Positions 262-5,792 of a stretch of DNA of 25,036 bases are shown here, piece by piece. The notes below the pieces were generated by a model. It ran no database searches, was not told the origin of the DNA, and saw only the letters and a list, made by a program, of their open reading frames with translations. Position 1 is the first letter of the stretch. Each line of letters opens with the position of its first letter. The stretch is from a virus: positions 1-25,036 of the IMG/VR virus record IMGVR_UViG_3300050821_000310; one strand, written 5' to 3'. A program made the position numbers and the translations under genes.

Positions 262-669
262 TTGCCGATTCTGCAATGGCGTTGCGCGCATGGTGAAGCA
301 CCAGCTGTCGTTATGGCGTGCGGTCGCACCGTCGAAATTGCGCCGCCCAATGATGCGGTCGATTCCAACCTCGTCCGCATCGAGGGCGATGGCACCATCG
401 AATGGTTCGGCGAAGCACCGCCTGTCATCAAGCGAGTCCTCTTCCAAGCCGGGATCACGCTGAAGCACAACCCGCCGCTTCTATCGCTGCTCTGCTGCGC
501 GGATCGCATCATCACCACCCCGGCCATCGGCCTCTATGCATCTGGCGGCGACGGCTGCTGGAGCGAAGTGCATTTCACCGAGACCGGCGCGCGTGAATTG
601 TCGCGCCGCCTGGACCAGATCGAAGAACGCCTCGCCGACATCGAGCGCCGCTTAGACCGCGACATCTGA
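262..669 (+). CDS. Small phage protein with C-terminal coiled coil, unrecognised
   Basis: This frame encodes 135 residues from a TTG at 262, preceded by GGGAG at about 249-253 with suitable spacing. An in-frame ATG at 313 (residue 18) is the alternative start. Residues 1-105 look globular, with hydrophobic segments such as IKRVLFQAGITLK and several Cys residues. The last ~28 residues (ARELSRRLDQIEERLADIER) form a heptad-patterned helix, probably an oligomerising coiled coil. No family is recognised. It sits 4 nt after the preceding stop and 53 nt before the capsid gene, so it is likely part of the head operon. An out-of-frame ORF at 254-463 overlaps it but lacks the coiled-coil signal and is judged a shadow. 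Confidence 0.6.
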   Translation: MPILQWRCAHGEAPAVVMACGRTVEIAPPNDAVDSNLVRIEGDGTIEWFGEAPPVIKRVLFQAGITLKHNPPLLSLLCCADRIITTPAIGLYASGGDGCWSEVHFTETGARELSRRLDQIEERLADIERRLDRDI

Positions 670-722
670 TCCCCGACACCGTCAACGCAATCGACCACCT
701 GCAGCCTGCGGGAGGAGTAGCC

Positions 723-2825
723 ATGCTCAAAAAAGCGAACGCCACCGTCACGCGCGACGACATCGAGCCTGATGATGACGAGTCCTACGAGGACTTCATG
801 GATCGCTGCTCCGACGAGATCGGCGACGATGATGTCTGTCAGATCATCTGGGACAACCGCGCCGCCGAAGGGCTGCGCTACAAGACCGTGGCCGAAAAGG
901 GCGACGGCCTTGAGTTCGTGCTGTCCGACGAGACGCCGGATCGCATGGACGATGTGATCATGTCCGATGGCTGGGACCTCGCGAATTTCAACAGGAACCC
1001 CATCGCGCTGTTCGGCCATCAGAGCAGCTTCCCCATTGGCAAATGGAAGAACGTCCGCGTCGTCGATAAGCAGCTGCGCGGCTTCCTTGAGCTGGCCCCG
1101 GAAGGCACATCGGATCGCATCGATGAAATCAGGCGGCTGGTCGCCGCCGACATTCTGCGCGCCGTCTCGGTCGGCTTCAGGCCGAAGGAGAGCAAGCCGC
1201 GCGCCGAATCCGATTGGGGCCTGTTCTTCACCAAGAGCGAGCTGGTCGAGACCAGCCTTGTGTCGGTGCCAGCAAATCCGAATGCGCTGGCAGTCGCCAA
1301 GTCGCTGAAAATTTCCCCCGCAACAATCGATCTGGTCTTCGTCGGGAAAGACGCAAGGGACGGGATCGAGCGGCGCGGGATCACTGGCGGGCAAGCCAAC
1401 AAATCATCGCTTGTGAGAAAGGGCGCGACAATGTCGTTCGCTCAAAGGATCACTGCTGCCGAGCAGCGCCTCAATGGCCTGCGCGACCAGCTGTCGGCAC
1501 ATTGGGAAAAGACCGACGAAACGAATGTCAGCGACGATCAGCTGAAGATCGCCACTGATCTTGGAGAGGCCATCGCGCGGGAAGAGCGCACGCTCGAAGC
1601 CCTGCGCGCTGCTGAAAAGAGCCTCGGCCAGCAATCCGATGATGGCCGCACCGTCGTCATATCGCGCGGCCAGCAGGTTCAGCGGATCGCTGAGCCGGTG
1701 CGACCGTTCGCGGTGGCAAGGAAGAAGATCGAACCGCAAGAGTTGCTGGTTCGCATGGGCGTCGTCACGCTGCGTGCGCATCAGACCAAAAAGCCCATCG
1801 ATGTCGTCATGCGGGAGACCTATGGCGACGACGAGATGCTTCGCGGGATGTTCGATTGGTACGCGAAGGCCGCCACTGCTCCAGCCATGACCAATGTCCC
1901 CGGCTGGGCGCAGGAGCTTGTTCAGCAAATCTATGTCGCGTTCATGGAAACGCTGATGCCGAAGTCGGTCTTCCCCCGGCTTTCCGGTTACGGGCTCTCG
2001 CTGCAGTTCGGCAACAACGGCAAGATCGTGATCCCGACCCGCGCGACGACGCCGACAATCGCTGGCTCGTTCGTCGGTGAAGGTTTGCCGATCCCCGTTC
2101 GGCAGGGCGCGTTCACTTCGCAGACGCTCCTGCCGAAGAAGATGGCGGTCATCACCACATGGACGCGGGAGATCGGTGAGCACAGCGTGCCTGCCATCGA
2201 GGGCTTGCTGCGCAACGCGATCCAAGAGGACACGGCAATCTCGCTCGATACCGTGCTGCTCGACAGCAACGCGGCAACGCTGGTACGGCCCGCTGGCATC
2301 CTGAACGGCATCGTCGGCCTGCCGCCTACGGCTGGCGGCGGCTTCAATGCGCTGGTCGGCGACATCAAGCAGATCAGCGGCGCGCTGCTGACCGGCACCA
2401 AGGGCAACGTCCGCACGCCGGTCTGGCTGATGAACCCGCAGCAGGTCAACAGCATCGGCCTGACGGCGGCTCCCGGCATGGGCGTGTTCCCGTTCCGCGA
2501 GGAAGTTAGCGCGGGCAACCTCGGCGGCTGGCCGATCATCGACTCGGGCACCGTGCCGCTTGGCACAGTGATCGCGCTCGATGCTGCCGACTTCGTGTCG
2601 GTCGGCGACGAGGCTCCTCGCTTCGAGATCAGCGATCAGGCAACGCTGCATTTCGACGACACCGCTCCTGCCGACATCGTCGGCGGCGCGGACCCCGGCA
2701 CACCCGCCAACCCGGTCAAGTCGCTGTGGCAAACCGACAGCCTCGCACTGCGGCTGATCCTGCCCATCAACTGGACCGTTCGTCGCGCTGGTGTCGTCGC
2801 TTACGTCTCTGGCGTCACCTGGTAA
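723..2825 (+). CDS. Fused HK97-type prohead protease and major capsid protein
   Basis: This 700-residue protein joins two head proteins that are normally separate. Residues ~45-205 match a prohead maturation protease: a conserved His in ALFGHQ (His99), the likely nucleophile Ser149 in AVSVGF, and the family signature ELVETSLVSVPANPNALAVA. Residues ~237-310 are a charged, helical, scaffold-like delta region. Residues ~390-700 are an HK97-fold major capsid protein, with a capsid-entry segment near MTNVPGWAQELVQQI and later LLRNAIQEDTAISLDTVLL. The protease would cleave the delta region and itself during capsid maturation. The ATG at 723 follows a strong GGAGGAG. A second in-frame ATG at 1431 could yield capsid precursor alone. 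Family assignment is firm; the cleavage site cannot be read from the sequence. Confidence 0.93.
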   Translation: MLKKANATVTRDDIEPDDDESYEDFMDRCSDEIGDDDVCQIIWDNRAAEGLRYKTVAEKGDGLEFVLSDETPDRMDDVIMSDGWDLANFNRNPIALFGHQSSFPIGKWKNVRVVDKQLRGFLELAPEGTSDRIDEIRRLVAADILRAVSVGFRPKESKPRAESDWGLFFTKSELVETSLVSVPANPNALAVAKSLKISPATIDLVFVGKDARDGIERRGITGGQANKSSLVRKGATMSFAQRITAAEQRLNGLRDQLSAHWEKTDETNVSDDQLKIATDLGEAIAREERTLEALRAAEKSLGQQSDDGRTVVISRGQQVQRIAEPVRPFAVARKKIEPQELLVRMGVVTLRAHQTKKPIDVVMRETYGDDEMLRGMFDWYAKAATAPAMTNVPGWAQELVQQIYVAFMETLMPKSVFPRLSGYGLSLQFGNNGKIVIPTRATTPTIAGSFVGEGLPIPVRQGAFTSQTLLPKKMAVITTWTREIGEHSVPAIEGLLRNAIQEDTAISLDTVLLDSNAATLVRPAGILNGIVGLPPTAGGGFNALVGDIKQISGALLTGTKGNVRTPVWLMNPQQVNSIGLTAAPGMGVFPFREEVSAGNLGGWPIIDSGTVPLGTVIALDAADFVSVGDEAPRFEISDQATLHFDDTAPADIVGGADPGTPANPVKSLWQTDSLALRLILPINWTVRRAGVVAYVSGVTW
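1415..1433 (+). promoter_or_regulatory. Internal ribosome binding site and in-frame ATG for capsid precursor
   Basis: GAGAAAGGG at 1415-1423 lies 7 nt before an ATG at 1431 that is in frame with the protease-capsid fusion (codon 237). The ATG falls at the boundary between protease and the charged delta region, where a separate capsid gene would begin. Initiation here would give a 464-residue capsid precursor in excess over the full fusion, as expected from the stoichiometry of capsid to protease. Internal initiation is inferred from spacing and position only. Confidence 0.5.
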
Positions 2826-2855
2826 GCGGCCCCTTTGGCAACAGGAGAAAGCAAC

Positions 2856-3212
2856 ATGACGAACCAAGACCACAAGGGCGGCGAAAAGCACAGCACTGAC
2901 ACCAAAAAGCGACTCGCCGACGAGAAGACGGCCCGCGAGAAAAAGCAGGCCGAGCAACGCGCTGCGTCGGCGGGCGTGAAGCCGACGCCAACGCAGGAAG
3001 AAAATGATCTCGCCGCATCGGGCGAGCATCTGACCGAGCACGAGCCGGATGGCTCGCCGCCCGATCCGAACGTGACCCAGCCGCCGACCGAACCTCCGCC
3101 GACCGAAGGCGAAGGCGGCGCTGGCACCACTTCGCGCGAAGCGAAGCCCGCTGCACATAATCAGCGTGGCGACTATTCGACGCGAGCCGCTGCACCCGCG
3201 AAGCATGAATGA
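2856..3212 (+). CDS. Small charged, Pro/Glu-rich phage protein
   Basis: The start is set at the ATG at 2856 because AGGAGA at 2843-2848 lies 7 nt upstream; an in-frame TTG at 2835 has no such site. The 118-residue product is very hydrophilic. Residues 1-40 are Lys/Glu-rich and likely helical (KRLADEKTAREKKQAEQR); residues 60-95 are Pro/Glu/Thr-rich and probably disordered. No family is recognised. It lies between the capsid and portal genes and overlaps the portal start by 4 nt (ATGA), so translation of the two is probably coupled. A head-assembly accessory role (scaffold-like or decoration) is a guess from location and composition. Confidence 0.7.
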   Translation: MTNQDHKGGEKHSTDTKKRLADEKTAREKKQAEQRAASAGVKPTPTQEENDLAASGEHLTEHEPDGSPPDPNVTQPPTEPPPTEGEGGAGTTSREAKPAAHNQRGDYSTRAAAPAKHE

Positions 3213-4559
3213 GCAATCGCGGTTGGCTGGCGCGCATCGCCAACCAGTTCGTGCGTCGGGGTGAAGGCGACTATCACCCCGGCCCGTGGCTATTGCCGAT
3301 CACCGGAGGCTGGTTGCCTTCCGGGGTCGGCGAGAGCATCAACTGGTGGCAGCGCGGCTTTGATCCTATCGGGCTTTCAACGCAGTCGGCGATGGTTGAG
3401 GCATGCGTCTCAGCCTATGCGCAGACCGTCGCGATGTGCCCCGGTGATCACTGGCGGCTGAACGACAAGAACGGCAGGGACCGAGTGAAAAACTCGGCCC
3501 TGTCCCGCATCCTGCGCCACCCGAATGACTACCAGTCGATCAGCGACTTCCTGCTGAACGCCACGCGCTCGCTCTACCTCGACGGCAACGCCTATGCGCT
3601 GGCGCTGCGCAATGATCGCTTCGAGATCGACGAGCTGCATCTGATGGACCCGAAGCTGTCCTATCCCCGGCTGGCGACAACCGGCGACATTTTTTATTCG
3701 CTGTACGGCAACGACGTGATCGAGAAGCGCCTCGGCTACGAGCAGCTGGTCGTGCCGCAGCGCGACGTGCTTCATATCCGTCTGCACACGGTGCGGCATC
3801 GCTTCCCGACACCGCTGATCGGCGAGTCGCCCATCGTCGCGGCCTACAGCGATGTCGGCATGAGCAGCGCCATCGCGGCGCAGCAGCTGAAATTTTACAT
3901 GAACGAGGCGCGGCCATCGGCGGTGCTCTCGACCGATCTGCAGCTGGACAAGGATCAGGTTCAGGCGCTGCGGGATCGCTGGAATGAGCAGGCCAAGGGC
4001 CTGCATCAGGGCGGCACGCCGATCCTCACCGCAGGGCTGAAAGTGCAACCATGGGCGCAGGGCGGCAAGGATGCCGCCACAGCGGAGATGCTGAAGCTGA
4101 GCAACGAGCATATCGCGCTCGCCTTCCGCATCCCGCTGCAGGTGCTCGGGCTTGGCGGCACGAACCTTTCGTCGACCGAGCTGCTGATGCAGAGCTGGGT
4201 CGCATCGGGCCTCGGCTTCGCGCTCAATCATATCGAGGAAGCCATCGGCCTGCTGTTTCAGCTGAAGGGCCAGCCCGACGAATATTGCGAGTTCGACACC
4301 GCAGCGCTGCTGCGCTCGGCGATGAAGGACCGCATCGAAGCGCTGGCGCGTGGCGTTCAGGGCGGCATCTTCGCGCCCAATGAGGCCCGTCAACAGGAGG
4401 GCCTCGACGCCGTCAAGTTCGGCGATGAGCCGCGCGTGCAGCAGCAGGTCGTGCCCTTGAGCGCTGCGGCCAATATTCCAGCCGCGCCAGCGCCCGCCGC
4501 CGCGCCGCCGGCTGCTGCTTCAGACGACAAGCCACCGCCTCCAGAAAAGGGCGACCGCG

Positions 4560-5791
<1,232 letters not shown>

Positions 5792-5792
<1 letters not shown>

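Follow-up and report, generated by a model that had tools for sequence, protein, structure and literature searches.

A nested in-frame start codon inside a protease-capsid fusion gene very probably serves to make the capsid precursor, as judged from its conservation and nucleotide context. The gene, a single open frame of 700 codons, occupies positions 723-2825 of a 25 kb virus record (the full stretch is hereafter called the window), on the + strand as are its parts described below. The nested ATG at position 1431 is its codon 237. From this we infer that one gene gives rise to two proteins with an identical C-terminal part: initiation at ATG 723 would yield a protease-scaffold-capsid fusion and initiation at ATG 1431 the scaffold-capsid part alone, an ordinary HK97-type capsid precursor. 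If true, this explains how a phage with fused protease and capsid escapes a one-to-one ratio of protease to capsid chains and gets the protease into the prohead; the annotations of the relatives examined, which give the long CDS only, would then lack the second product. What is new is the nested product, which would be the capsid precursor itself, across a wide family, together with a pair of hairpins in the linker; if their proposed role is true, these represent a new candidate RNA element in head genes.

Domain organization of the fusion protein

The frame encodes, in this order, an S78 prohead protease, a disordered linker, scaffold-like helices and an HK97-type capsid protein. Pfam Peptidase_S78 (PF04586) matched residues 73-191 (32.2 bits, cut-off 21) and Phage_capsid (PF05065) matched residues 423-629 (37.1 bits, cut-off 24.2), which confirmed the unbroken protease and capsid frame proposed by an earlier sequence-only reading of this DNA. 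PHROG 617 ("major head protein") aligned with residues 45-700 over profile positions 10-626 of 626 (E 1.5e-78). Since this profile spans nearly the whole protein, the fusion itself is of a known kind, as the same reading had stated, and PAJU2 and MD8 are further examples. The NCBIfam model for protease/capsid fusions (NF045541) scored 36.4 bits, below its curated cut-off of 525.

The domain borders were refined with an AlphaFold model built from a 69-row alignment, with one phage-collection row left out (mean pLDDT 79); a first model was poor (pLDDT 51) and was discarded. The protease domain (residues 61-206, positions 903-1340), delimited by Pfam, the alignment and the model, was predicted with confidence. 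It contains H99 and S149, which show no variation across 71 aligned sequences and may be the active-site His and Ser. The linker (residues 207-236, positions 1341-1430) is predicted to be disordered, with pLDDT below 50 for residues 207-235, and is hypervariable: 18 different lengths were found among 122 fused relatives. The linker sequence flanking the nested start is variable and rich in indels. The scaffold-like domain (residues 239-306, positions 1437-1640) is modeled as helices 239-263 and 271-306, and the capsid domain (residues 338-700, positions 1734-2822) is supported by Pfam, by the model and by sequence matches to PDB entries 9d9w and 8gta.

The nested ATG was said to lie exactly at the domain boundary, and the model agrees: the linker ends at residue 235 and the first scaffold helix begins at residue 239, so that the nested start stands two residues before it, at the linker/scaffold border. 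In this region the family profile also matched a major head protein that stands alone, 9gyi, over its N-terminal residues 3-76. Weak when taken alone, this match would make the nested start coincide with the beginning of an ordinary capsid precursor.

Conservation of the nested start codon

Scans yielded 332 loci, 316 of them scorable, and in 299 of these protease and capsid are fused. Among 223 non-redundant fused relatives, the codon at the nested-start position was ATG in 220, GTG in 2 and TTG in 1, counting four genes in which an ATG a few alignment columns off was assigned by proximity. Hence, all three non-ATG cases are other bacterial start codons, and a start codon is present in 223/223 relatives. 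Methionine conservation in this column is 95%, and that of neighboring linker columns is mostly 20-60%. The putative capsid precursor encoded by the nested frame (positions 1431-2825) is 464 residues long. One of the relatives, the Sphingomonas aerophila copy (L095), carries GTG as its nested start codon and a capsid frame whose 3' end is altered.

Shine-Dalgarno sequences of the two starts

The nested start is preceded by the Shine-Dalgarno (SD) sequence GAGAAAGGG (positions 1415-1423), 7 nt upstream of ATG 1431 as the sequence-only reading had it, with a pairing energy of -9.2 kcal/mol. The fusion start has GGGAGGAG (positions 710-717; -11.5 kcal/mol). Both energies refer to an alphaproteobacterial anti-SD, the 3' tail of Bradyrhizobium 16S rRNA, CCUCCUUUCU; the Bradyrhizobium 16S gene ends in CCTCCTTTCT, and the mature 3' end is assumed. 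With the Escherichia coli anti-SD the site had read as weak (-4.4), a reading that was dropped given the value of -9.2 with the Bradyrhizobium tail. Codon 237 ranks second among the 33 in-frame ATG, GTG and TTG codons, after codon 1 (-11.5) and ahead of the next codon at -6.9. Its SD is thus more than a chance occurrence.

The SD block is also conserved. Purines make up at least 91% at positions -13 to -9 before the nested start (143 clusters at 85% identity), with the block weak in one subclade comprising L034, L037 and their kin. The SD energy at the nested start averages -6.3, whereas 2177 other in-frame ATGs average -2.4 (p 4e-43); out-of-frame ATGs also have poorer energies. Recoding the peptide with synonymous codons gives weaker SDs than the natural one (p 6e-12). 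Arginine codons within the block are AGA, AGG or CGA in 95% of cases versus 16% elsewhere, and CGC is absent from them, compared with 49% elsewhere; GC3 around the site falls from 0.74 to 0.56. The comparison with recodings and the arginine codon bias indicate that the SD has been selected at the nucleotide level, beyond the demands of the peptide. Among relatives, the ATG and the SD block thus persist while the remaining linker peptide varies, which was the check suggested for the nested capsid start; together with the start codons and the restarts of split genes described below, it gives that proposal strong support.

The SD strengths do not predict an excess of capsid over fusion. In 58 Bradyrhizobium-type genes the mean energies of fusion and nested start did not differ (-8.8 versus -8.7, p=0.80); they were equal on average in the PAJU2 group, and in the Sphingomonas group the fusion-start SD was somewhat stronger than the nested one. 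That the fusion is the minor product and the capsid precursor abundant is nevertheless plausible by analogy, because capsid exceeds protease in the proheads of HK97 (~60 proteases per 415 capsid chains) and D3 (~90 proteases per prohead) (PMC12749128). As here, these phages have a protease and a capsid precursor with an N-terminal scaffold domain, but the two are encoded by separate genes and the protease enters the prohead as its own protein. In the fused case, fusion and capsid precursor would co-assemble and, as the N-terminal scaffold domain of HK97-like proheads points to the interior, the fusion would bring the protease inside.

Tandem hairpins upstream of the nested start

The linker contains a pair of tandem hairpins that was absent from the first reading and was found in the follow-up. 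In the Bradyrhizobium-type clade, the 22 nine-codon windows with the highest excess of synonymous-codon identity, out of 677, all have first codons within 202-225, a region that adjoins the nested start upstream. The alignment of this region revealed two interrupted palindromes of the form G-N-C-RRGNNN-G-N'-C, at positions 1341-1352 and 1386-1397. Hairpin 1, GTC-GGGAAA-GAC (positions 1341-1352), covers codons 207-210, and hairpin 2, T-GGC-GGGCAA-GCC-A (positions 1385-1398), covers codons 222-225 plus a flanking pair. The stems are short (3-4 bp), and the minimum-energy structure of the window RNA includes both hairpins (z -2.8).

Across 91 loci, the exact motif pair has 88 occurrences in the 130 nt before the start, as against 5 on the remaining sense strand and 10 on the opposite strand of 609 kb. 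A looser search located the pair in 89/91 Bradyrhizobium/Sphingomonas-type clusters, and the remaining two, L048 and L222, have compensated stems (AGC..GCT and GGG..CCC), bringing the count to 91/91. In 61 sequences of hairpin 1, the outer and inner pairs are invariant and the middle pair is CG, GC or UA, with no mispairs. Paired cells and covariation scored above 500/500 shuffles in three clades, these shuffles ignoring the relatedness of the sequences. PAJU2-type phages carry what by its sequence is a cognate pair: the stem of their hairpin 2 consists of five pairs, all of which show changes on both sides, and GCG opens most of its loops. Whole-gene hairpin scans gave hairpin 2 the top rank of 9120 in the PAJU2 clade and put hairpin 1 at ranks 2, 3 and 6 in the Sphingomonas clade; neither leads in the Bradyrhizobium clade because the hairpins hardly vary there. 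Four lineages (L023, L090, L231 and L305) keep hairpin 2 intact although its reading frame is shifted, and compensating indels bring the fusion back into frame. Thus, the linker peptide is free to vary while the fusion frame and the nucleotide element are kept.

No match to the hairpin region was found in Rfam 15 up to E 1 (window 1200-1600), and no published description of the pair was found in the accessible literature. A tandem-motif scan of viral contigs placed 96 of the 232 matches listed with the protease-capsid fusion family. The other 136 matches listed show no common capsid context and look mostly like chance.

Located 33-90 nt before ATG 1431, the hairpins probably act as an RNA element that controls capsid initiation, and one factor would bind both copies. 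We regard a role in translation as the simplest conjecture, given that the position of the element follows the nested start; most often, 30 or 33 nt separate the end of hairpin 2 from the start codon. The two loops within a genome agree above the shuffled level (0.64 versus 0.33; 0.82 versus 0.46), which suggests a single binding factor, although shared ancestry may contribute. More tentatively, and with somewhat less confidence than doubt, we propose that the linkers of the fusions in many alphaproteobacterial phages carry an undescribed tandem-hairpin RNA operator, with a cognate in PAJU2-type phages, at which one phage factor would set the output of nested capsid versus fusion. The candidate factor is perhaps the scaffold domain of the capsid precursor itself.

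Two other functions for the hairpins have to be weighed. The near-fixed distance to the start would also fit a site of RNA processing or of internal transcription giving rise to a separate capsid mRNA, on which ATG 1431 would be an ordinary 5'-proximal start, and terminator-like hairpins with T-runs occur at the same place, inside the open fusion frame of L129 and L141 and in the intergenic DNA of L130, L164 and phiKM1. We consider such a site unlikely, since no sigma-70-like promoter was found in window 600-3300 and stems of 3-4 bp are too short for typical RNase III sites. Terminator-like hairpins of this kind lie directly before the capsid start, and L104 has one as well.

Pairing by itself cannot tell RNA from DNA, and interrupted palindromes ~45 nt apart would fit a dimeric DNA-binding protein, so that the inverted repeats might be a double-stranded DNA site unrelated to translation. 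The probability of this is low, in our judgment: the site has an orientation, since almost every genome of the type has purine-rich sequence in both loops of the sense strand; the hairpin spacing follows the start codon; and the window RNA folds into both hairpins at the z score given above.

Relatives with separate protease and capsid genes

In some relatives the frame is broken in the linker and the capsid gene restarts at the codon aligned with the nested start. Among phages, the first codon of the separate capsid gene coincides with the nested-start point in Moraxella phages Mcat7 and Mcat9 and in Stenotrophomonas phage SOVA965. Viral contigs whose linker is broken by a stop or by intergenic DNA show the same restart (L139, L142, L143, L227, L130, L134, L152, L154 and L164), with an apparent TTG as the restart codon of L142. 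L041 and L073 were not counted as splits, as their break lies inside the capsid part. On a capsid-domain tree, obtained by a fast method and containing long branches, the fused or split label changes 9 times, at least 7 of which are forced by well-supported branches.

The repeated gain or loss of this separation shows the fusion to be dispensable in some lineages, and would suit a scenario in which the nested start supplies nearly all capsid and the fused product is a functionless leftover of a lost stop codon. Three observations make this quite improbable: the fusion is retained in 299/316 loci, the 18 linker lengths are all in frame, and compensating indels have restored the frame in four lineages. 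That, conversely, only the fusion is made, its protease cleaving itself in the linker and Met237 being kept as a cleavage or contact site or for another reason at the protein level, is hardly credible, for although the HK97 and D3 protease processes the capsid precursor (PMC12749128) and the linker, being predicted as disordered, may be cleavable, the substitutes for Met237 are limited to GTG and TTG codons, rare arginine codons form the SD at the synonymous level, and the capsid gene of split relatives starts at the equivalent of codon 237. Production of both fusion and nested capsid precursor is the reading that we retain.

Among the split genomes, L143 retains both hairpins upstream of its stop, and L227 retains the hairpin 2 sequence between protease stop and capsid start; in this Sphingomonas-type contig an insertion apparently parts hairpin 1 from hairpin 2. 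In L134 and L154, hairpins with GTGA loops upstream of the capsid start replace the usual pair, two of them in tandem in L134.

Comparison with known systems and gene neighborhood

In phage lambda, the scaffold protein Nu3 starts in frame inside the protease gene C. A conserved internal start codon with an SD at the domain border, as in arrangements of the C/Nu3 kind, is found here too. In Mu I/Z and the Mu-like phage PaMx73, the shorter C-terminal product likewise starts in frame after the protease domain, and the nested product of lambda C/Nu3 and Mu I/Z is the scaffold only, with a separate capsid gene, whereas here it would be the whole scaffold-capsid precursor. Gifsy-2 reportedly has a tripartite gene for protease, middle domain and capsid, with a ClpP-like protease (Effantin et al. 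2010). For PaMx73 and Mu, an internal start with an SD has been described, at Val177 in PaMx73 (PMC4378225).

PAJU2 and MD8 combine protease, scaffold-like part and capsid in one frame, as here. PAJU2 is annotated with a "prohead protease fused capsid protein," and the MD8 report presents gp5 as a single gene encoding protease, scaffold and capsid (PMC8508860). These sources describe one gene product, the word "internal" being absent from the MD8 text (PMC8508860), and the portions of the PAJU2 and MD8 descriptions consulted make no mention of hairpins. A literature search, with subscription literature mostly outside its reach, found no earlier account of nested starts in protease-capsid fusions.

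The fusion gene precedes the portal gene (window 723-4633), the reverse of the HK97 order, and the same holds for PAJU2 and JLK-2012. Upstream of the fused gene, L090 (3279-4415) and L053 (692-1750) each have a further coding stretch that resembles an HK97-type capsid. Between the portal and head-tail adaptor genes, the window contains a collagen-like Gly-X-Y ORF (4560-5792; Pfam Collagen, E 3e-30).
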